DNA from: Serratia rubidaea
GTDB lineage: Bacteria > Pseudomonadota > Gammaproteobacteria > Enterobacterales > Enterobacteriaceae
Assembly (NCBI GenBank): GCA_901472405.1
Contig: LR590463.1
Location: 1,736,001-1,800,000 of the forward strand
Reading direction: 5' to 3'
DNA: 64,000 bases
Below the pieces are notes generated by a model that worked only from the letters and a program-made list of their open reading frames with translations, had not been told where the DNA came from and searched no databases. Positions 54,576-64,000 of this stretch are shown here, in pieces (the first letter of the stretch is position 1; the number at the start of each line of letters is the position of its first letter). The position numbers were made by a program, and so were the translations under genes.

Positions 54576-55072
54576 ATGTCTAACTCATACCAGTCCGAGA
54601 TCCCAAGGCCCGCGTCAATATCAAGCTGGACCTGCATACCGGCGGCGCCCAGAAAAAAGTCGAACTGCCCCTCAAGCTGATGGTGGTGGGGGATTACAGC
54701 AACGGCAGTGAACAACGCCCGCTGTCCGAGCGCGAAAAGATCAACGTTAACAAAAACAATTTTGACAGCGTGCTGGCCGAATTCTCTCCGTCGGTCAACC
54801 TGGCGGTGGAAAACACCCTGGCCGGCGACGGCAGCGAGGAAAACGTCAGCCTGACGTTCCGCGAGATGAATGATTTCACCCCGGAACAGGTTGCCCGCCA
54901 GATCCCGCAGCTGAAAGCCATGCTGGCCATGCGCAACCTGCTGCGCGACCTGAAGGCCAACCTGCTGGACAACCAGACGTTCCGTAAAGAGCTGGAGAAA
55001 ATTCTGCTGGATCCCGCCCTGAGCGCTGAACTGCGCGATGAACTGTCCGCCCTGGCGCCGGCGCAGCCGTAA
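54576..55072 (+). CDS. tssB: Type VI sheath small subunit TssB (one -1 indel)
   Basis: Cytoplasmic small subunit of the contractile sheath (VipA family). AGGGA precedes the start MSNSYQSEIP; one A missing in 54605 to 54606 (AAA read as AA) breaks the frame, and repair gives KARVNIKLDLHTGGAQKKVE, then LPLKLMVVGDYSNGSEQRPL with the family marks INVNKNNFDSVL and the C-terminal RDLKANLLDNQTFRKELEKI. Repaired length is about 165 residues, as usual. tssC follows after 33 bases. Confidence 0.92.
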
Positions 55073-55105: not shown

Positions 55106-56653
55106 ATGCTGATGTCTGTAAAAAATGAGAATGCCGCCGGCGGTGAGAGTGTGGTGCTGGAACGTCCGCAGGCGGGCGGTGTGTATGCTTCCCTGTTTGA
55201 AAAAATCAACCTGAACCCGGTGGCGTCGCTGAGCGCGCTGGACAGCTGGCAGGATAACCAGACGATGTCCGACGCCACGGCGGACGAACGCGTCACCGCC
55301 GCGATGCAGATCTTCCTGGAGCGTCTGAAGCAGTCCGGCGACAAGGTGGAAAAACTCGACAAGACCCTGCTGGATCACCACATTGCCGAACTGGACCACC
55401 AGATCAGCCGCCAGCTGGACGCGGTGATGCACCACGAGGACTTCCAGCGCGTTGAATCCCTGTGGCGCGGCATGAAGTCGCTGGTGGACAAAACTGATTT
55501 CCGTCAGAACGTCAAAATCGAGCTGCTGGATCTGTCGAAGGACGACCTGCGGCAGGATTTTGAAGACGCGCCGGAAATCGTGCAAAGCGGCCTCTACCTG
55601 CAGACCTACGTTGCCGAATACGACACCCCGGGCGGCGAGCCGATCGGCGCGCTGATCTCCGCCTATGAGTTCGACGCCTCCGCGCAGGATATCGCGCTGC
55701 TGCGCAATATTTCCAAGGTGTCCGCCGCGGCGCACATGCCGTTTATCGGCTCCGCCGGGCCGAAGTTTTTCCTGAAAGACAACATGGAAGACGTCGCCGC
55801 CATTAAGGATATCGGCAACTACTTTGACCGCGCCGAATACCTCAAATGGAAAGCCTTCCGCGAAACCGATGACGCCCGCTATATCGGCCTGGTGATGCCG
55901 CGCGTGCTGGGCCGCCTGCCGTATGGCCCGGACACCGTGCCGGTGCGCAGCTTTAACTATGTGGAAGAGGTCAAAGGCCCGGACCACGATAAATACCTGT
56001 GGACCAACGCCTCCTTCGCGTTCGCCGCCAATATGGTGCGCAGCTTTATCAACAACGGCTGGTGCGTGCAGATCCGCGGCCCGCAGGCGGGCGGCGCGGT
56101 GCAGGACCTGCCGATCCATCTCTACGATCTCGGCACCGGCAACCAGGTGAAAATCCCGTCGGAAGTGATGATCCCGGAAACCCGTGAGTTTGAGTTCGCC
56201 AACCTGGGCTTTATCCCGCTGTCGTACTACAAAAACCGCGACTATGCGTGCTTCTTCTCCGCCAACTCCGCCCAGAAGCCGGCGCTGTACGACACCGCGG
56301 ACGCTACCGCCAACAGCCGCATCAACGCACGTCTGCCGTATATCTTCCTGCTGTCGCGCATCGCGCACTACCTGAAGCTGATCCAGCGCGAAAACATCGG
56401 CACCACCAAGGATCGCCGCCTGCTGGAGCTGGAGCTGAACACCTGGGTACGCAGCCTGGTGACCGAAATGACCGACCCGGGCGACGAGCTGCAGGCCTCG
56501 CACCCGCTGCGCGACGCCAGGGTGGCGGTGGAAGATATCGAAGACAACCCGGGCTTCTTCCGCGTGAAGCTGTATGCGGTGCCGCACTTCCAGGTGGAAG
56601 GGATGGACGTCAACCTGTCGCTGGTATCCCAGATGCCGAAGGCGAAAGCATAA
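55106..56653 (+). CDS. tssC: Type VI sheath large subunit TssC
   Basis: Cytoplasmic large subunit of the contractile sheath (VipB family) that assembles with TssB around the Hcp tube and is disassembled by ClpV in complete systems. It has 515 residues. Family motifs include LDHHIAELDHQISRQLDAVM, RGMKSLVDKTDFRQNVKIEL and AYLPYGPDT-like GRLPYGPDTVPV. MLMSVKNE gives two possible ATG starts, two codons apart, after GAGAGAAA. The segment is GC-rich like the chromosome. No indel is seen. Confidence 0.95.
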   Translation: MLMSVKNENAAGGESVVLERPQAGGVYASLFEKINLNPVASLSALDSWQDNQTMSDATADERVTAAMQIFLERLKQSGDKVEKLDKTLLDHHIAELDHQISRQLDAVMHHEDFQRVESLWRGMKSLVDKTDFRQNVKIELLDLSKDDLRQDFEDAPEIVQSGLYLQTYVAEYDTPGGEPIGALISAYEFDASAQDIALLRNISKVSAAAHMPFIGSAGPKFFLKDNMEDVAAIKDIGNYFDRAEYLKWKAFRETDDARYIGLVMPRVLGRLPYGPDTVPVRSFNYVEEVKGPDHDKYLWTNASFAFAANMVRSFINNGWCVQIRGPQAGGAVQDLPIHLYDLGTGNQVKIPSEVMIPETREFEFANLGFIPLSYYKNRDYACFFSANSAQKPALYDTADATANSRINARLPYIFLLSRIAHYLKLIQRENIGTTKDRRLLELELNTWVRSLVTEMTDPGDELQASHPLRDARVAVEDIEDNPGFFRVKLYAVPHFQVEGMDVNLSLVSQMPKAKA

Positions 56654-56668
56654 GGCGGGTTATCGGGG

Positions 56669-58017
56669 ATGAAAATCTATCGTCCGTTGTGGACTGACGG
56701 GGCCGTGCTGGCCCCACAGCAGTTCCAGCAGCAGTCTGAATGGAAGCATTTTCCAGGGCGGGAGTCTCTTCCCTCAACTCACCTTTCCCGTGGGGAGTTG
56801 AGCGTGTTGAACTGGATAATCAACATCTGGCGTCGGGGCGCATTCAGGCACAGTTTCTGCGTCTGTGGCTGCCCGACGGTACGCTGGTTGACACGCAGAA
56901 CAGCGATTTGCCGCCTGAGCCGCGTGAAATCCCGTCCCCCGTCAGGGGAAGCACTGAGCGGCTGACGGTCTTTCTGGCTCTGCCGGTGATGCAGCCGGGC
57001 ATCGTTAACGTTCAGACCGATACCGTGCGGGCCGAGCGCCCGCTGCGTTATCGTGAAGAGTGGGCGGTGGTTCCGGATGCGTTTGGCAAGGAAGAAGAAT
57101 CGATGGCGGTGGCTAGGTTTAATCTTGCTTTCCGTTTTGACACTGAGAGCAACGATGCCTGGCAGACCTGTGCGGTAGCCCGTTTGCTACCGGACGGAAA
57201 CGCAGGCTGGCGTCAGGATCCGGACTTTATCCCGCCCATGGCGCTATTTTCGGCAAGCGGCCTGTTGCACGAACGTCTGGTGCTGCTAAATCGTCAGTTG
57301 CGTTCTCGTCGTCAGCGCCTGATGGCGATGCGTCGCGAAAGTAATGACCGCATGGCGGACTTCGCGGTTGCCGACGTCTCGTTGTTCTGGTTGCTGAACG
57401 CGCTGAATACTCATGCTCGTGTGCTAACCGAGTTTGAACGTTTCCCGGCCCGTCATCCTGAGCAGGTATGGGCGGAGCTGGCACGGCTGGCAGGCAGTAT
57501 GCTGACGTTTTCACTGGATCGCGATCTGGACGCTATTCCGGGCTATGACCATCAGGCCCCGGAAAACACCTTCCCGCCGCTATTTGAGCTTATTAGTGAG
57601 CTGCTTGAAGCCAGCCTGCCGTCCCGCGTTATTGCCGTGGAGATGACTCGCCAGGACGAGCAGACCTGGAAAGCGGTATTGCACGATATTCGTCTGCGTG
57701 AAGAAGCCGATTTCTACCTGTCTGTCCGTTCAAATCTGCCGGCCTGGCAAGTGGCTGAGAAGTTTGCCGATATGGCCCTGGCCGGAACTCCGGATGATGT
57801 AGGTCAGATTTCCGGCGTAGCAATGGAAGGCATTGGACTAATCCCTCTCAGCCGTGTCCCTGCGGCATTGCCGGTGCGTCTGGAAAATCAGTACTTCGTG
57901 CTGGATATGGAGAGCCGTGCAGCGCATGACATGCTGGAGCAGGGGGTATGCCTGTTCTACGTGCCGTCATTGTTGGGCGAGCTTGAACTTGAACTGTTTG
58001 CGGTACTGCGCTCATGA
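56669..58017 (+). CDS. tssK: Type VI baseplate adaptor TssK (one -1 indel)
   Basis: TssK trimers link the baseplate to the TssJLM membrane complex. The start MKIYRPLWTDGAVLAPQQFQ is family-like. The frame breaks at 56742 to 56743; adding one G gives QSEWEAFSRAGVSSLNSPFP and continues with WGVERVELDNQHLASGRIQA to the end. Repaired length is about 449 residues, in the family range. It is 15 bases after tssC, and its last codons overlap the tssL start by four bases. Confidence 0.92.
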
Positions 58018-58733
58018 GAAAGGATATCGATATTGACAGCCTGATGGCGGATACCTGGCTTACCGTGGCGCAGCTGCGTCACGGCGCCAAGGCGCCGAAC
58101 GGGCAGGCGCTGTATAAAAATTGCTGTGCACAGGTGGAAAGCGTGCGTGAAGCGCTGGAACGAGCCGGTTATGACAGTGAGAGCATCACACATATTTCTT
58201 ATGCGCAGTGTGCTCTGCTGGATGAAGCGGTGATGAACCGTAAGCCCGTGTCTGCAGATGAATACGTGAATTCGCCGGACTCTGAATCTGAGGCTCTACA
58301 GAAAACCGACATGGACGAAGGCATCAAAGCCTGGCGTGCCGCACCGCTGCAGGCCCGTTACTTTGGCTCGCTGCGTGCAGGTGGTGCATTGTATGACCGC
58401 ATCGCGGAAGTGCTGCGTCAGCCGTCTCCGGTTCCTGCGGTGCTGACCTGCTACCAGCGTGTTCTTGCATTGGGATTTCAGGGGCAGTTTAGCCTCTCCG
58501 GCGTCGGACAATCGCAGCGAGACGAAGTAATTGCCGCCCTGAACGAGCGTGTCCCACGACTGGAGACGGGGAGCGATCTGGTTGTACAGAAAACAGGTAA
58601 GCGGCGCTACAACATTCTGCGTTCAGTGTGGTTCTGGATCGTTATGGCCGTGGTGTTCACGGCGCTGGTTTGGACAGGTGGCCACCTGTGGTTGCAACAC
58701 CTTCTGCACCAGCAATTACCGGAGCTGCGCTGA
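58014..58733 (+). CDS. tssL: Type VI inner-membrane protein TssL (DotU family)
   Basis: Inner-membrane anchor of the TssJLM complex, with a cytoplasmic helical domain that contacts the baseplate. It has 239 residues. The DotU pattern is visible (SYAQCALLDEAVMNR, a family-typical helix) and a single C-terminal hydrophobic segment (SVWFWIVMAVVFTALVWTGG, about residues 203 to 222) anchors it. The peptidoglycan-binding extension found in some TssL is absent and is supplied by the next gene. It overlaps tssK and tagL. Confidence 0.92.
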   Translation: MRKDIDIDSLMADTWLTVAQLRHGAKAPNGQALYKNCCAQVESVREALERAGYDSESITHISYAQCALLDEAVMNRKPVSADEYVNSPDSESEALQKTDMDEGIKAWRAAPLQARYFGSLRAGGALYDRIAEVLRQPSPVPAVLTCYQRVLALGFQGQFSLSGVGQSQRDEVIAALNERVPRLETGSDLVVQKTGKRRYNILRSVWFWIVMAVVFTALVWTGGHLWLQHLLHQQLPELR

Positions 58734-60430
58734 TGCGAAAGTCTGCGCTGATATGGGCTGCATTACCGGTGCTGATTTGTCTGGCGGCTGCGCTCTGGGT
58801 TATGTGGGGATTTCTGAATGTCTCCGTGCTGGTTAAAAGCGTGCTGACGTTGGCTGGCTTCATGGTGGCGCTGCTGCTGATGCATCGCCGCTATCGCCGT
58901 CAGCAGCCTGTTGGCCAGCATGTTGATGAGGATGGTTACCCGCCAGCTGGTTTTACCGGCCCAGTTTTACTGGTATGCGGCGATATCAACGATCGCCTGT
59001 TTGCGGATGGTGGATGTCGCACCACGGCGCAGGGCTGCTATCTGAAAGTGGGGTCAACGGATCGGTTAAGCAAATTTGCTGACCGCTTGCTGGTGCGTGA
59101 ACCTCGCATGGCCGGACAACTGGTCGTCATGTTCCGCTGTCTGCCGGACTTGCACGAAGATGAAGGGCTGTTGCGTGCTTCTCTGAAGGTGCTGCGCCAA
59201 CAGGTGAAGCAGATGAAGAATCTTTCCGGCTATTTGCCTCCTGTCGTGCTGGCTGGAGAGTTTTCCGGGCCGGAAACGCCGTGGATTATGATTCGGGGCA
59301 AAACGCCGTTGGTCTGCCCGACGGATGAGCCTGCGCTGACGCTGGAGGAGTGGCGTGCCCTGCCTGAAAACGTAACGCGTTTACCATATCTGTCCCATGC
59401 AATGAACCTGCTGCAGCAGGTGGTGATGGAGGAACTGAAGAAAGCAGACCGTCTGTATCCGGCCGTCTCGCCGTTTGCGGTGGTTGTTCGTAGCGGCGCA
59501 GTTCGAACTCAGACGGAAGCCGTCTGGCCGCAGTGGCTGTTCCGCCATTCGACATTGTTACCTCCGACAGCGACCGCAACGTATCCGGCGCAGTGGCATT
59601 TTGCCGACCCGGTACTGCCGGTGCTTGCTCCTTATGCCATGCCGCTTCAGGGCGGAAAAACCGGGCGTTGGGTGGTGATCTCCCTATTGCTTTGCATCAT
59701 CAGCGCGCTGGGCTTGTCCGTACTGCACAACCAGTCTCTTATCGGGCGGATTGCCTCCGATCTGCAGCGTTGGTACGCCATTCCGATGACGCTCTACGCG
59801 CCGAAAGCGCAGTCCCTGCATGCCCTGCAACAGGATGCCTTGCTGTTGGAACGCTGGCAGCGCCAGGGCGAGCCGCAGCGTTACGGCCTGGGGCTTTATC
59901 CGGGCGAGCGGTTGTGGCTGAGCGTACAGCAGGCGATTGATACTTATATTCCACCGCCGCCGCCACCGCCGCCAGAAGTCAAACCGCAGGCGCCGGCGCC
60001 GAAAATTGTCCGCCTCGACAGCATGTCGCTGTTTGACTCCGGCAAGGCGGAGCTGAAAGCCGGCTCGACCAAAATGCTGGTCAATTCGCTGGTGGGCATC
60101 AAGGCCAAACCGGGCTGGCTGATTGTGGTCAGCGGCCATACCGACAACACCGGCAAGGCGCAGCTGAATCAGCGGCTGTCGCTGCAGCGCGCCGAGGCGG
60201 TACGCAACTGGATGCGCGATACCGGCGACGTGCCGGAAAGCTGTTTTGCGGTGCAGGGCTACGGCGCAAGCCGCCCTGTCGCCGACAACGATACGTCGGA
60301 AGGCCGTGCGCTTAACCGACGCGTCGAAATCAGTCTGGTACCGCAGGCGGACGCCTGCCGGCTGCCGGACGCAACCCCGCCGTCATCATTGGAAGGTGAC
60401 GGCGTTGATAACAACGAGTGGAGAAAATGA
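58733..60430 (+). CDS. tagL: Type VI peptidoglycan-anchoring protein TagL (OmpA-like C-terminus)
   Basis: Matches the TagL layout known from enteroaggregative E. coli: three membrane segments and a periplasmic OmpA/Pal-type domain that ties the secretion complex to the cell wall. Of 565 residues, two hydrophobic segments lie at about 5 to 24 and 29 to 47, a third at about 309 to 328 (GRWVVISLLLCIISALGLSV), then a proline run (PPPPPPPP) and the OmpA domain with SGHTDNTGKAQLNQRLSLQR and NRRVEISLV. Start ATG overlaps the tssL stop; the frame is open further up but that is within tssL. Base composition shifts near the proline run (see findings). Confidence 0.85.
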   Translation: MRKSALIWAALPVLICLAAALWVMWGFLNVSVLVKSVLTLAGFMVALLLMHRRYRRQQPVGQHVDEDGYPPAGFTGPVLLVCGDINDRLFADGGCRTTAQGCYLKVGSTDRLSKFADRLLVREPRMAGQLVVMFRCLPDLHEDEGLLRASLKVLRQQVKQMKNLSGYLPPVVLAGEFSGPETPWIMIRGKTPLVCPTDEPALTLEEWRALPENVTRLPYLSHAMNLLQQVVMEELKKADRLYPAVSPFAVVVRSGAVRTQTEAVWPQWLFRHSTLLPPTATATYPAQWHFADPVLPVLAPYAMPLQGGKTGRWVVISLLLCIISALGLSVLHNQSLIGRIASDLQRWYAIPMTLYAPKAQSLHALQQDALLLERWQRQGEPQRYGLGLYPGERLWLSVQQAIDTYIPPPPPPPPEVKPQAPAPKIVRLDSMSLFDSGKAELKAGSTKMLVNSLVGIKAKPGWLIVVSGHTDNTGKAQLNQRLSLQRAEAVRNWMRDTGDVPESCFAVQGYGASRPVADNDTSEGRALNRRVEISLVPQADACRLPDATPPSSLEGDGVDNNEWRK

Positions 60431-60431
60431 A

Positions 60432-60923
60432 ATGGCAATTCCTGTTTATCTTTGGCTGAAAGACGACGGCGGCGCGGACATCAAAGGGTCGGTGGACGTT
60501 CAGGATCGCGACGGCAGCATCGAAGTGGTGGCGCAGGAACATAACCTGTACATCCCGACCGATAACAACACCGGCAAGTTGACCGGCACCCGTATCCATA
60601 CGCCGTTCCTGTTTACCAAGGAGATCGATGCCTCCAGCCCGTACCTGTACAAGGCGGTCACCACCGGCCAGACCCTGAAGTCGGCGGAGTTCAAATGGTA
60701 CCGCATTAACGATGCCGGTCAGGAAGTGGAGTACTTCAACACCAAACTGGAGAACGTGAAGGTGGTGAAAGTGAATCCGCTGATGCACGACATCAAGGAT
60801 CCGTCGTTTGAAAAGCATAACCACCTCGAGCAGATCGAGCTGCGTTACGAAAAAATCACCTGGACCTACAAAGACGGCAACATCATTCATTCCGACTCTT
60901 GGAACGAACGCGCTACTGCGTAA
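60432..60923 (+). CDS. hcp: Type VI tube protein Hcp
   Basis: Hexameric ring protein that stacks into the inner tube, secreted and a carrier of small effectors. It has 163 residues starting MAIPVYLWLKDDGGADIKGS, GGAGA before the ATG. Hcp1-family motifs include VAQEHNLYIPTDNNTGKLTG, GQTLKSAEFKWYRI, and the C-terminal EKITWTYKDGNIIHSDSWNE. It is one base from the tagL stop. A strong terminator follows. Confidence 0.97.
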   Translation: MAIPVYLWLKDDGGADIKGSVDVQDRDGSIEVVAQEHNLYIPTDNNTGKLTGTRIHTPFLFTKEIDASSPYLYKAVTTGQTLKSAEFKWYRINDAGQEVEYFNTKLENVKVVKVNPLMHDIKDPSFEKHNHLEQIELRYEKITWTYKDGNIIHSDSWNERATA

Positions 60924-60990: not shown

Positions 60991-61018
60991 GCGGACAGGT
61001 CCCCTGTCCGCTTTTTTT
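60991..61018 (+). terminator. Terminator after hcp
   Basis: Perfect stem GCGGACAG / CTGTCCGC with a 5-base loop, followed by seven T. It would let hcp be made in excess over the genes beyond it. Confidence 0.9.
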
Positions 61019-61143
61019 CCTGAGCATCCGGCATCCGGGTGTTCAGCAAAGAGATCACAATCCGGCAATCTGACCTGATGCGCTTTGGTACACAGTGATG
61101 GGCGGTAGCGTGCCCGGGAGAACCGATTAATCAAGAGAGAATT

Positions 61144-61263
61144 ATGGAAAATTCAGCTGTCCTGTTACGCCGCCTTAATCCTTCAATACGGTCGACCTGC
61201 TTACAGCCACTTACCCTGGGATGGAGTGAAGAAGGGATTGCGCTGATGTTTGGGGACAGATAA
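61144..61263 (+). pseudogene. clpV: Probable clpV (tssH) remnant with large internal deletion
   Basis: A 39-codon open frame after AAGAGAGAA. Its first 13 residues MENSAVLLRRLNP resemble the start of ClpV AAA+ ATPases of enterobacterial type VI systems, and its last residues LTLGWSEEGIALMFGDR resemble ClpV C-termini. Everything between, normally about 850 residues including both ATPase modules, is missing, so it cannot disassemble sheaths. The join is in frame and a GTCGAC hexamer lies at 61191 to 61196, at the apparent junction. clpV is expected between hcp and vgrG in this kind of cluster. Recognition is from memory of homologues, so it remains probable. Confidence 0.55.
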
Positions 61264-61316: not shown

Positions 61317-62132
61317 ATGTTCAAAAAAATGGTTTTATTAACGTCAGTTGTTGTGTTTTCTGGTTCGGTAAATGCCGGGTTATTTGATTCTAACGATTTC
61401 AAATGTGGCAGGAATGATACTGTTAAAGCGCTTACTGATTATATAAAAAACGATGCTTCGGGTATGTTGCAAAGTGACTATCTTACAAAATCAAATTTTT
61501 ATTATGATAAGCCTGTTTCAGTTTATCAGAGTATGCTGGACAGCATGGAAGTGACAATTGCAAATGTATCAACATCTGGTAAAGGTAGTCATGATCTAAA
61601 TTGCAGTGCAACTATTTCAATGAAAATCCCGAAAGACACGCTGGATGTGGTAAATAAAATCCCTAATTACTTACATTATATCACTGGCGGATATGGAAAG
61701 ATAAATAATAATGGCGTAATTTGGAATGGCGTTGCCTATAGTGCAAAACTTGCTGATAATAATAAGGATGTTATTTTTAGCAACTTCAGCAGAACTGATG
61801 CTTCTGCTGCTTTATTCAATATGAGCGTGCTCGCTGTAAACAAAGAACAGATTATTAGTGCTCTCTCGCAGAATGCGCTGAGTTCAGCACGCTCTGCTTA
61901 TGTAAACGCCGATCGTGAGTTGAATGCTGTATGGAAGGAATTACCCGACTCAGCACGGAATTCACTGAAAAAAGAGCAAGTGGTCTGGGTTAATAATAAA
62001 GTGGCTAAATGTGGAAAGCTTCCAGATGGCGAGTCAGAGAAAGATAATGTACAGCGGTGGGTTGATATTTATCAGTGTCAGACAAAAATGACTAATGAAA
62101 GGATCACCTATTTAACTGGTAATGATAACTAA
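61317..62132 (+). CDS. Exported LprI/DUF1311-like protein of the type VI cluster
   Basis: Unrecognised as a whole: 271 residues with a signal peptide MFKKMVLLTSVVVFSGSVNA and about 33 percent GC in sampled stretches, far below its neighbours, so it is likely acquired. The C-terminal third (SAYVNADRELNAVWKELPDS, SLKKEQVVWVNNKVAKCG, IYQCQTKMTNERITYL) fits the DUF1311/LprI pattern of lysozyme-inhibitor-like proteins, with two cysteines in the usual place. AAGGGAAA precedes the start. Lying just upstream of vgrG it could be a periplasmic immunity or accessory protein for a wall-attacking effector; that is inference only. Confidence 0.65.
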   Translation: MFKKMVLLTSVVVFSGSVNAGLFDSNDFKCGRNDTVKALTDYIKNDASGMLQSDYLTKSNFYYDKPVSVYQSMLDSMEVTIANVSTSGKGSHDLNCSATISMKIPKDTLDVVNKIPNYLHYITGGYGKINNNGVIWNGVAYSAKLADNNKDVIFSNFSRTDASAALFNMSVLAVNKEQIISALSQNALSSARSAYVNADRELNAVWKELPDSARNSLKKEQVVWVNNKVAKCGKLPDGESEKDNVQRWVDIYQCQTKMTNERITYLTGNDN

Positions 62133-62200: not shown

Positions 62201-64000
62201 ATGAGTGATTCTGTGATTGCCTTGGCAAAGGAAAAAATCAACCAACTTCTGGGAATGTCCCGCTATAAGCTGGACGTTCACGAGTGCCCGCACTTTCTGG
62301 ATGTCTTCAGTTTCAGATCGGAAGAAAAGCTCAGTGCACCGTGGCACTACACCGTCAAAGTAACCTGTTCCGAAAGTGATATTTCCAGCGACGACATGCT
62401 GCTCAAACCGGCATCGTTCACGTTCCAGGTTCCGCTGTATAACGGTATGCCCGCCACACCTGTGCGTACCGTTTATGGCGTGGTTCAGACATTTCAGCGC
62501 CTCTCTACTTCTGCCGATGAAACCCGGTACTCGCTGACGATTGTGCCGCGCATCGCGCTGATGCAACACACAAAGCGCAGTGAGATTTACCTCAATCAGT
62601 CCGTTGTGGAAGTGGTGGAGCAGATCCTGCGCTCCCACGGGCTGGCAGGCGATGATTTTGAATTCCGTCTGTCGCAGAGTTATCCGGTACGTGAACTGCT
62701 CACCCAGTGGCGTGAGACTGACCTCGAATTTGTGCAGCGCCTGCTTGCCGAAGTGGGTATCTTCTGGCGCTTTGAAATGGATGGACGTCTCGAAAAGGAT
62801 GTGGTGATTTTCCAGGACAGCCTGGAGCACTATCAGTTTGGCGTGGTTCTGCCGTTGATCCCGCCGTCACGCACCAGCGATAACGGGCAGCTCAGCGTCT
62901 GGGATATAAAAAAACGGTCATCAGGTGGTGTCAGAACGTGTCGCCAACCGCGATTACAACTACCGCGAGGCGCTGAAGCCGCAGGACAGCTCCGCGTCTG
63001 TCAGCACCACGGATGGCATCACGACGGGCGAGGTGTATCACTACGCAGAACCTTTCCTGAGCGGAGGCGATGCCGCAACTCCGGAGAGCGGGGCGTACTA
63101 TGCCCGCCTGCGCCATGAACGCATTCTGAATGCGCAGCAGGCGGTCACGGGGAAAACAACCAGCCCCGTGCTGTCACCGGGGGAGGTGCTTGAACCGCAG
63201 GGCTCGCTTCCTGCCAGCCTGAAAAACGGCATCGTTATCACCGGTGTGCAGAGCAGTGGTTCGCGTAAGCAAAGCTTTAAGATGACCTTTACCGGGATCC
63301 CTTACAGTGAAGCCGTGTGCTATCGTCCGCCGTTACATCATCGCCCGGTGATTGCCGGTACCTTACCTGCACGCGTGGAAAGCACTGAGAAAGGTGATAC
63401 CTATGCCTGGCTGGACAATCAGGGCCGCTACCGCACGAGGCTGGACTTCGACCGCAGCGACAGCGAGCAGGGCTACGCCTATTTGTGGCTGCGTCTAGCG
63501 AAGCCGTATGCTGGAGACAATTACGGCTTTCATGCGCCGCTGCTCGACGGTACCGAAGTCTCGGTGATGTTTGATGCGGGGGATCCTGACCGTCCGTATA
63601 TCGCCCATGCCCAGCACGATTCAGAACACCCGGACCACGTCACTGACGATAACCATACGCGCAACGTCCTGCGAACCCCGGCGAACAATAAACTCCGTAT
63701 GGAGGATAAGCGCCAGGAAGAGCACATCAAGCTCGCGACGGAGTTTGGCAAGACCCAGCTCAATCTCGGCCATCTGGTTGATGCGCAACGTGAAAAGCGC
63801 GGTACGGGTTTTGAACTGCGCAGCGATGAGTTTGGCGCCGTGCGCGCTGCCCGCGGTGTTTACCTGACAGCCGATGCGCAGGCTAAAGGCCAGGGAGAGG
63901 TACTGGAGATGAACCCGGCTGTCAGCCGGATAACCCAGGCCAACAGCGAGATGCAGGCACTGAACGGGGCTGCCGAACAGGCGAAAGCCCTGACCAGTGA
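62201..64000 (+). CDS. vgrG: Type VI spike protein VgrG (one +1 indel; 3' end outside window)
   Basis: Trimeric puncturing spike at the tip of the Hcp tube, often fused to or carrying effectors. From MSDSVIALAKEKINQLLGMS the gp27-like part shows YKLDVHECPHFLDVFSFRSE and LLTQWRETDLEFVQRLLAEV. The frame breaks in a run of seven A (62908 to 62914); removing one gives DIKNGHQVVSERVANRDYNY and the frame stays open to the window end with the gp5-like LWLRLAKPYAGDNYGFHAPL and FDAGDPDRPYIAHAQHD. About 600 residues are present; any C-terminal effector domain lies beyond. Confidence 0.93.

Follow-up and report, generated by a model that had tools for sequence, protein, structure and literature searches.

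Incomplete T6SS loci have been described in Klebsiella. According to the available parts of those papers, some loci are without tssB, tssC, tssD, and tssH, and their dependence on a complete locus has been suggested (PMC9550808; PMC12469244; reviewed in PMC13367176), and incomplete loci in that genus may be dead or may borrow from the complete one (PMC9550808; PMC12469244). Partial loci of another make-up feature in the available part of a survey of Pantoea and Erwinia (PMC3235180). With regard to control, the accessible text on Escherichia coli CFT073 reports that, once H-NS and StpA are removed, ChIP-seq detects RfaH at the ops-bearing leader of c3392-tssH (PMC9765446). In an rfaH mutant of Yersinia pseudotuberculosis, T6SS genes were raised and, as far as the available text goes, no ops-like motif was detected ahead of them (PMC12607645).

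The locus investigated here was found in a 64,000 nt stretch of the genome of Serratia rubidaea (GCA_901472405.1, contig LR590463.1, positions 1,736,001 to 1,800,000), referred to as the window. The genome (G000) is represented by one contig of 5.0 Mb and is 91 % complete. A frame of 39 codons, the stump, stands in the window after hcp, and is most likely a natural remnant of the resident clpV (tssH) of a T6SS locus.

As with T6SSkleb1 and CH1157 T6SS-2 of Klebsiella, in so far as the available parts of the reports describe them (PMC12469244; PMC9550808), there are relatives of this locus that are tail-less and stand beside a complete locus. Unlike the Klebsiella loci, the window locus has lost only clpV and tssA, both of which are duplicated downstream; the relatives, for their part, keep DNA stumps and include tssA in the lost set. 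Since stumps of the lost genes are kept, the tail-less state appears to have arisen by deletion from a fuller locus. T6SS-3 of Pantoea and Erwinia is similar in its overlapping host genera, in having hcp in the conserved block, in the absence of FHA, PpkA, and PppA, and in its extra and partial vgrG genes; however, the available part of that account, to which the loci were mapped by description, mentions neither clpV stumps nor a displaced clpV-tssA block (PMC3235180). The c3392-tssH operon of CFT073 is a T6SS operon that takes its name from tssH and also has ops in its leader, yet here the ops leader outlasts the deleted clpV and a second ops leader precedes the other clpV, compared with what the accessible text describes (PMC9765446). 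The second T6SS locus of Mixta tenebrionis (G072:C45) likewise has clpV-tssA-tssE-vasL in one block, with a tssA that is 75 % identical, but there full hcp and tssC precede clpV, whereas the window genome has only an hcp tail. In the literature examined, within the parts of each text that were available (including PMC6580597, PMC7108748, PMC13185608, and PMC4239648), there is no report of clpV stumps or clpV-tssA displacement, nor of ops conserved in clpV-less loci.

The 39-codon frame

The frame at 61144-61263 reads MENSAVLLRRLNPSIRSTCLQPLTLGWSEEGIALMFGDR-stop and fuses 13 codons from the start of clpV with the last ~17 codons of that gene (Table 1). The full clpV of this genome (G000:C1:1823790) begins with the same 13 residues as the frame, and the leader and start together (61005-61183) have 90 % DNA identity to this downstream copy (E 5.4e-62). 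The matching stretch is annotated as tssH in eight of 11 plasmid-collection records, the other three having no listed gene there, and in all three matching records of a further search. The right end of the stump matches the full ClpV of its own genome weakly (11 of 17 columns, E 0.014-0.035 in 54 kb). Against the ClpV C-terminus at the syntenic place in Kosakonia sacchari, where a full clpV lies between hcp and the LprI-like gene, it matches at 75 % over 16 columns, and the DNA match continues from the 3′ end of the stump up to where the next gene begins (93 of 119 columns). With its last residues, the intergenic DNA behind them, and the LprI-like gene and vgrG all corresponding to the place of clpV in K. 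sacchari, the stump is, on sequence grounds, orthologous to that clpV and has lost about 2.5 kb. The preliminary description of the window had read the frame as beginning and ending like ClpV and as an in-frame scar where clpV should be, and comparison of product and DNA with ClpV/tssH genes, in which both ends found a match, bears this out.

The ~26 nt of the join (61184-61209) have no clear match to anything. With three of six clpV templates, similarity to the NxDSLLNQ region of ClpV has a p of about 0.01-0.03 when compared with shuffled sequences; for the remaining three (p 0.08-0.2) the best places are elsewhere, and an origin of the join in that region is only suggestive. No family was found in a Pfam scan of the 39-residue product, which has neither the two AAA+ domains nor the N-domain of a ClpV/TssH ATPase and is a remnant. 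When the stump or its surroundings were searched against E. coli genomes, only hcp was among the matches listed; against the plasmid collection only the tssH start matched, and one of the searches of E. coli, plasmid, and phage sequences gave nothing. In another species of the genus (G001), no ClpV above 54 % identity was found and the sole match to the stump region was 33 bp.

The join is in-frame and contains GTCGAC, which had been put forward as a possible mark of an engineered deletion, the clpV of a laboratory strain having been removed with a SalI site left behind. This is very unlikely. The window contains 13 GTCGAC sites against about 20 expected from its composition, so the site is not enriched; a natural-looking tssA deletion and hcp remnant are present in the same locus; comparable stumps are seen in records of Pantoea, Erwinia, Citrobacter, and Enterobacter; and the 3′ end of the stump does not come from the remaining clpV of the genome. 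With tssA deleted as well and stumps in other genera, the pattern is not that of a designed join in a single gene absent from relatives, and the engineered scar was rejected.

Nor can collapse of an intact clpV with the second copy during assembly be given much credence, although it might be invited by the presence of two leader copies that are 90 % identical, in an assembly that is a single contig and contains frame errors. The 3′ end of the stump and the following DNA match K. sacchari and not the full copy, and a collapse would not make a second join at tssA. The clpV lineage that the right end resembles is not that of the full copy, and this candidate was also rejected.

Table 1. Features of the T6SS locus within the window (positions are those of the window)
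Feature	Position	Strand	Evidence
tssB, 130-aa frame, start not settled	54680..55072	+	Matches at the tssB place in relatives; homology and order
tssC	55106..56653	+	Open frame, homologues in relative loci; homology and order
tssK	56740..58017	+	Open frame, homologues in relative loci; homology and order
tssL	58014..58733	+	Open frame, homologues in relative loci; homology and order
OmpA-like C-terminal protein	58727..60430	+	Query that found the 58 loci; homology and order
hcp, 163 aa, intact	60432..60923	+	Pfam T6SS_HCP
clpV leader common to the second copy (from G000:C1:1823650)	61005..61143	+	90 % between copies; lower to each relative compared
Exact ops (RfaH recruitment) sequence GGCGGTAGCGTG, predicted, 31 nt before stump ATG	61101..61112	+	Sole exact copy in the window
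5′ end of resident clpV, first 13 codons	61144..61183	+	Identity of peptide start, 90 % DNA identity to downstream clpV, tssH records
Join, origin unsure, holds GTCGAC	61184..61209	+	Suggestive similarity to NxDSLLNQ region, three of six templates
3′ end of resident clpV, LTLGWSEEGIALMFGDR-stop	61210..61263	+	Syntenic K. sacchari ClpV C-terminus and following intergenic DNA
LprI-like (lysozyme inhibitor) domain protein, 271 aa	61317..62132	+	Pfam PF07007, E 4.6e-7
vgrG, two overlapping frames, continues past window end	62201..64000	+	Pfam Phage_GPD, T6SS_Vgr, and others

Gene order and the resident tssA

In the window genome the order is tssB, tssC, tssK, tssL, ompA-like, hcp, clpV stump, lprI-like, vgrG1, and unknown genes, then tssM, tssF, tssG, tssJ, vgrG2, a DUF4123 adaptor, and further unknown genes and, at the far end, an hcp tail, clpV, tssA, tssE, and vasL. 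This is a complete type i T6SS locus, with the tssA-tssM core in one locus and several genes split in the assembly, based on Pfam matches for Hcp, VgrG, TssM, TssF, TssG, TssJ, ClpV, TssA, and VasL and a GPW_gp25/TssE match; tssB, tssC, tssK, tssL, and the OmpA-like gene were named by homology and order.

The order in K. sacchari is hcp, clpV, lprI-like, vgrG, ..., tssM, tssA, tssF, tssG, tssJ, vgrG2, ..., tssE, vasL, and the LprI-like protein that follows clpV there is a 74 % identical orthologue of that in the window. The K. sacchari SP1 locus (L031; G060:C18), which was the main yardstick, is broken upstream: tssL is present from residue 65, as are hcp and clpV, and no tssB, tssC, or tssK was found in the 10 kb before tssL. 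In contig C67 of M. tenebrionis, tssB to vgrG is whole, clpV follows hcp, and tssA is just before tssF, an order that supports the same putative ancestral places for clpV and tssA. The resident tssA, between tssM and tssF, has been cut to ~34 bp in the window genome, and the flanking DNA matches K. sacchari at 84 % on one side and 97 % on the other. Of the resident core genes, clpV and tssA were found with internal deletions, and it is these two that recur side by side downstream.

Short pieces nearly identical to vgrG (86 %, 98 %, and 98.6 %) are present at G000:C1:1803761-1803892, 1804795-1804947, and 1821967-1822188, a scatter that would fit the addition of effector cassettes through recombination at vgrG. 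A second LprI-like domain, joined to a VgrG-like stretch, was found at G000:C1:1806360-1806845; the proteins at this position and at 61317-62132 are possibly immunity proteins.

The downstream clpV-tssA-tssE-vasL block

A whole-genome search found a near-full-length close clpV at G000:C1:1823790-1826434, which belongs to the same T6SS locus as the stump and lies 26.6 kb downstream of it. It is followed by tssA, tssE, and vasL and preceded by an hcp tail of ~25 residues (about residues 136-160). AAA domains, AAA_lid_9, and ClpB_D2-small, found by Pfam on the frame after a frame change, identify its product as a ClpV/TssH ATPase, which is 71-83 % identical to the close clpV genes of other T6SS loci. 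The earlier proposal that the system had lost its sheath-recycling ATPase while keeping tssBC, hcp, and vgrG is thus half right: the resident clpV is nearly all gone and tssB, tssC, hcp, and vgrG are kept, but the cluster is not without clpV, given this same-family copy. The second clpV that was thought worth seeking does exist, and the suggestion that ClpV from another cluster is used comes close to the finding, except that the copy sits in the same locus. Two more clpV-like genes are present in the genome, the first at about 3.03 Mb, within a T6SS cluster of a different type, and the second at about 1.859 Mb. The latter (G000:C1:1858397-1860674) is a Clp-type gene in two overlapping frames, 51-58 % identical to ClpV, and the 16 kb examined there has no match to the other T6SS proteins of the locus.

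The best match to the downstream tssA outside the window genome is in C45 of M. tenebrionis (75 %; 47 genomes were searched, 40 of which had a match at the limit used), while identity to the tssA of K. sacchari is 54 %. In C45, tssC-hcp-clpV-tssA-tssE-vasL are contiguous, and the DNA of the block in the window genome is 78-80 % identical to it over clpV and tssA and 68 % over vasL. In a ClpV tree of 52 rows, the downstream copy pairs with that of Mixta C45 at modest support (81/78, the bootstrap not having settled), inside a group of 15 rows (98/99), and K. sacchari is in a separate group. Support for the pairing with Mixta C45 is weak.

Within the assembly, the downstream clpV has one frame change near codon 50. 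Across the genome, a ClpB-like gene, tssM, vgrG, and clpV are split in this way, and the assembly probably contains uncorrected indels. Because vgrG1, vgrG2, tssM, and the ClpB-like gene are also split, the change in clpV is more likely to be an assembly error than decay; if it is real, the locus may be without a working ClpV. Splits in the downstream clpV, tssM, vgrG1, and vgrG2 are also what would be seen if the stump were one of several broken genes in a decaying relic, with the whole T6SS locus being lost. This is unlikely: the split ClpB-like gene is elsewhere in the genome, as expected of an error-prone assembly (91 % complete), the frames of tssC, tssK, tssL, hcp, tssF, tssG, and tssJ are open, and for each of the two core genes with internal deletions the locus holds a second copy.

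It is instead proposed, with a probability of about 0.8 for the explanation as a whole, that the stump is natural, that the resident clpV and tssA were displaced by the downstream block, and that the leader was kept for its ops. A clpV-tssA-tssE-vasL block related to the second T6SS locus of M. tenebrionis would have reached the far end of the locus and taken over the jobs of the resident clpV and tssA, and these, now redundant, would then have been deleted down to their ends. Import or recombination of the block would be followed by loss of the redundant copy, clpV and tssA here and hcp there. The remnants, the second block, and the gene order can be read directly, and from them we infer the order of events and the functions. 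ClpV recycles the TssB/TssC sheath after contraction, and assembly of the sheath is organised by TssA. When the window locus is compared with the Mixta C45 block, identity is about 95 % for both Hcp and TssC, and therefore a foreign ClpV could plausibly serve the resident sheath. Weighing against the explanation are the frame change in the downstream clpV, the two other clpV-like genes of the genome, loci in which tssA has gone although clpV is intact, the upstream damage in the K. sacchari yardstick, and the weak tree support; against its leader part stand the missing ops of L049, the leader piece of Mixta C45, and the findings in Y. pseudotuberculosis (PMC12607645).

The ops leader

The leader of the stump contains GGCGGTAGCGTG, which corresponds to the ops consensus and whose role is supported by the accessible text on CFT073 (PMC9765446). 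There are two sites within one mismatch of it in the window, one of them exact, against 0.51 expected, and five exact sites in the genome against two for the pattern read backwards. Two of the five are those before the stump and before the full downstream clpV. An rfaH gene is present in the genome, above the cut-off, and the predicted ops, which reads in the coding direction and precedes the ATG by 31 nt, is as in the leader of an RfaH-controlled operon.

Among the relatives, 55 of 57 loci have ops within one mismatch (47 of them exactly) in the interval from the OmpA-like gene to vgrG or clpV; the two exceptions are L037, where the contig ends, and L049. Six of the seven clpV-less relatives have it exactly, including L041, in which no hcp or clpV was detected, L049 being the one without ops. 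C45 of M. tenebrionis has a 56-bp leader piece between ompA and vgrG in which there is no exact ops; its only exact ops precedes its clpV. The G+C content, 54-62 % before the stump, falls to 34-45 % in stretches after it and is 56-60 % in vgrG.

On the explanation proposed here, the 5′ end of clpV survives because its leader and start hold ops and a ribosome-loading start. The putative ops would load RfaH on RNA polymerase and the start would let a ribosome load, and RfaH and the ribosome together would help transcription through the lprI-vgrG-effector region with its AT-rich stretches. The ops and the start codon behind it may be kept for the vgrG-effector operon, RfaH binding and function being predicted from sequence.

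Loss of clpV in related loci

One scan with the OmpA-like protein as query returned 58 loci. In seven of these (L041, L044, L046, L049, L051, L059, and L061) clpV is reduced to a stump or absent, and each of their genomes has another full close clpV, 73-82 % identical to that of the window genome. Two or more close clpV genes were found in nine of 41 further genomes. Near-total loss of clpV was seen in 7 of 16 two-locus genomes and 0 of 36 single-locus genomes (Fisher, 8.6e-5; 2.8e-4 when Erwinia persicina is counted once), counts in which the loci are phylogenetically non-independent and several end at contig breaks. These 52 genomes are 11 from a first clpV search, with the window genome and G001 left out, and the 41 further ones, and the two classes were set by close clpV hits and by the loci of the 58-locus scan. 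The clpV classes exclude L037, whose contig stops in hcp, and L088, which is an unrelated MAG; L045 and L064, in which frame changes split clpV, were treated as intact, and the close clpV of G064 and that of G060 each have one stop inside the match, perhaps the native end. A truncated clpV with no other close copy is present in two single-locus genomes (L035 and L080), which counts against a strict rule; with these as losses the contrast is 7/16 versus 2/36 (p 0.002).

In L080 (Kosakonia sp. S29; L080:13700-14150), clpV is broken at about residue 779 and runs straight inside vgrG, a different deletion. An enterobacterial-type T6SS locus was also found in L083 (CACSKA010000001.1), titled Chryseobacterium sp. 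18061 and probably a mixed or mislabelled assembly.

In L041, L046, L049, and L051, other tail genes are reduced as well, the match covering 0-42 of the 515 residues for tssC, 0-87 of the 130 for tssB, and 0-23 of the 163 for hcp. In L061, whose stretch does not reach tssC, 30 of the 163 hcp residues are left; hcp is retained in L059, together with tssB and tssC, and also in L044. If a tail-less locus is one in which tssB, tssC, hcp, and clpV are absent, L041 is without all four and L046, L049, and L051 keep scraps, whereas the window locus, with tssB, tssC, and hcp kept, is not tail-less. In L041, L046, L049, L051, and L061, tssK (450-453 aa), tssL (224-236 aa), and the OmpA-like gene (575-639 aa) are open without stops, as are tssM (1150-1207 aa) and tssF (588-597 aa) in the clpV-less loci where readable; the reading for L041 covers tssK, tssL, and the OmpA-like gene only, and tssM and tssF of L051 were read from its presumed continuation contig. 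Judged by these frames, selection seems to keep the launcher and not the tail.

A remnant of tssA, or none, is present in all four contiguous loci that have lost clpV (G000, G061 C99, G066 C1, and G067 C40), against loss or a partial tssA in 4 of 34 contiguous loci with intact clpV (p 9.5e-4). The 30 pairs with both genes intact were counted by hand as being on the same contig within 26 kb, and the count excludes G093 C35, where the end of the contig truncates tssA, as well as loci whose contig stops sooner. The clpV-intact exceptions are G088 C62, with a scrap of tssA, G075 C12, where tssA is partial and not gone, and G094 C32 (near 343 kb) and G102 C1 (near 303 kb), both without tssA and tssF; in G094 C32 a fragment of tssM runs into vasL. 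Loss of tssA with clpV is a tendency, and tssA can also be lost while clpV stays. On the contigs that are probably the continuation of L051 and L044, tssA is a remnant or broken.

It might be supposed that the 39-residue peptide is a selected small protein and not a by-product of deletion, since L044, L049, and L051 likewise have remnants in which a frame stays open from the start of clpV in the direction of its end. This is very unlikely, as the remnants differ in length and sequence, the 39-residue product has no Pfam match, and the remnants in L046, L059, and L061 leave the clpV frame or stop early; a conserved small protein was rejected because the remnants are too different.

The clpV remnant of L059 (Enterobacterales MAG JAATFO010000091.1) contains five copies of a ~26-nt clpV segment encoding QTRAHAEI (L059:11530-11814), at an exact spacing of 61 nt with differing stretches of ~35 nt between them. 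This looks like a CRISPR-like array grown on clpV sequence. A phage search with the array gave no match, and Cas1-like matches in this MAG are below the cut-off.

Implications

The same parts appear to have been lost repeatedly, as the stumps suggest: ClpV with TssA, and often the sheath and tube. The loss has been seen where a second clpV exists, and the rest of the machinery stays open. From this we infer that one tail would be shared in trans. It is suggested, tentatively and at slightly less than even odds, that the tail (TssB/TssC, Hcp, ClpV, and TssA) is a swappable module shared between two related T6SS loci of the Enterobacterales, in which one locus repeatedly has its tail genes cut to stumps and relies on the tail of the other to drive its own membrane complex, baseplate, and VgrG effectors. 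The window locus would be a stage of this within one cluster, with an imported ClpV-TssA serving the resident sheath and tube, and the ops leader would be the hardest part to lose as the effector operon needs RfaH. For annotation, absence of clpV beside hcp does not mean that a T6SS is inactive. A putative RfaH control point before clpV is conserved in many genera, and the idea of one tail for two launchers becomes testable by gene removal.
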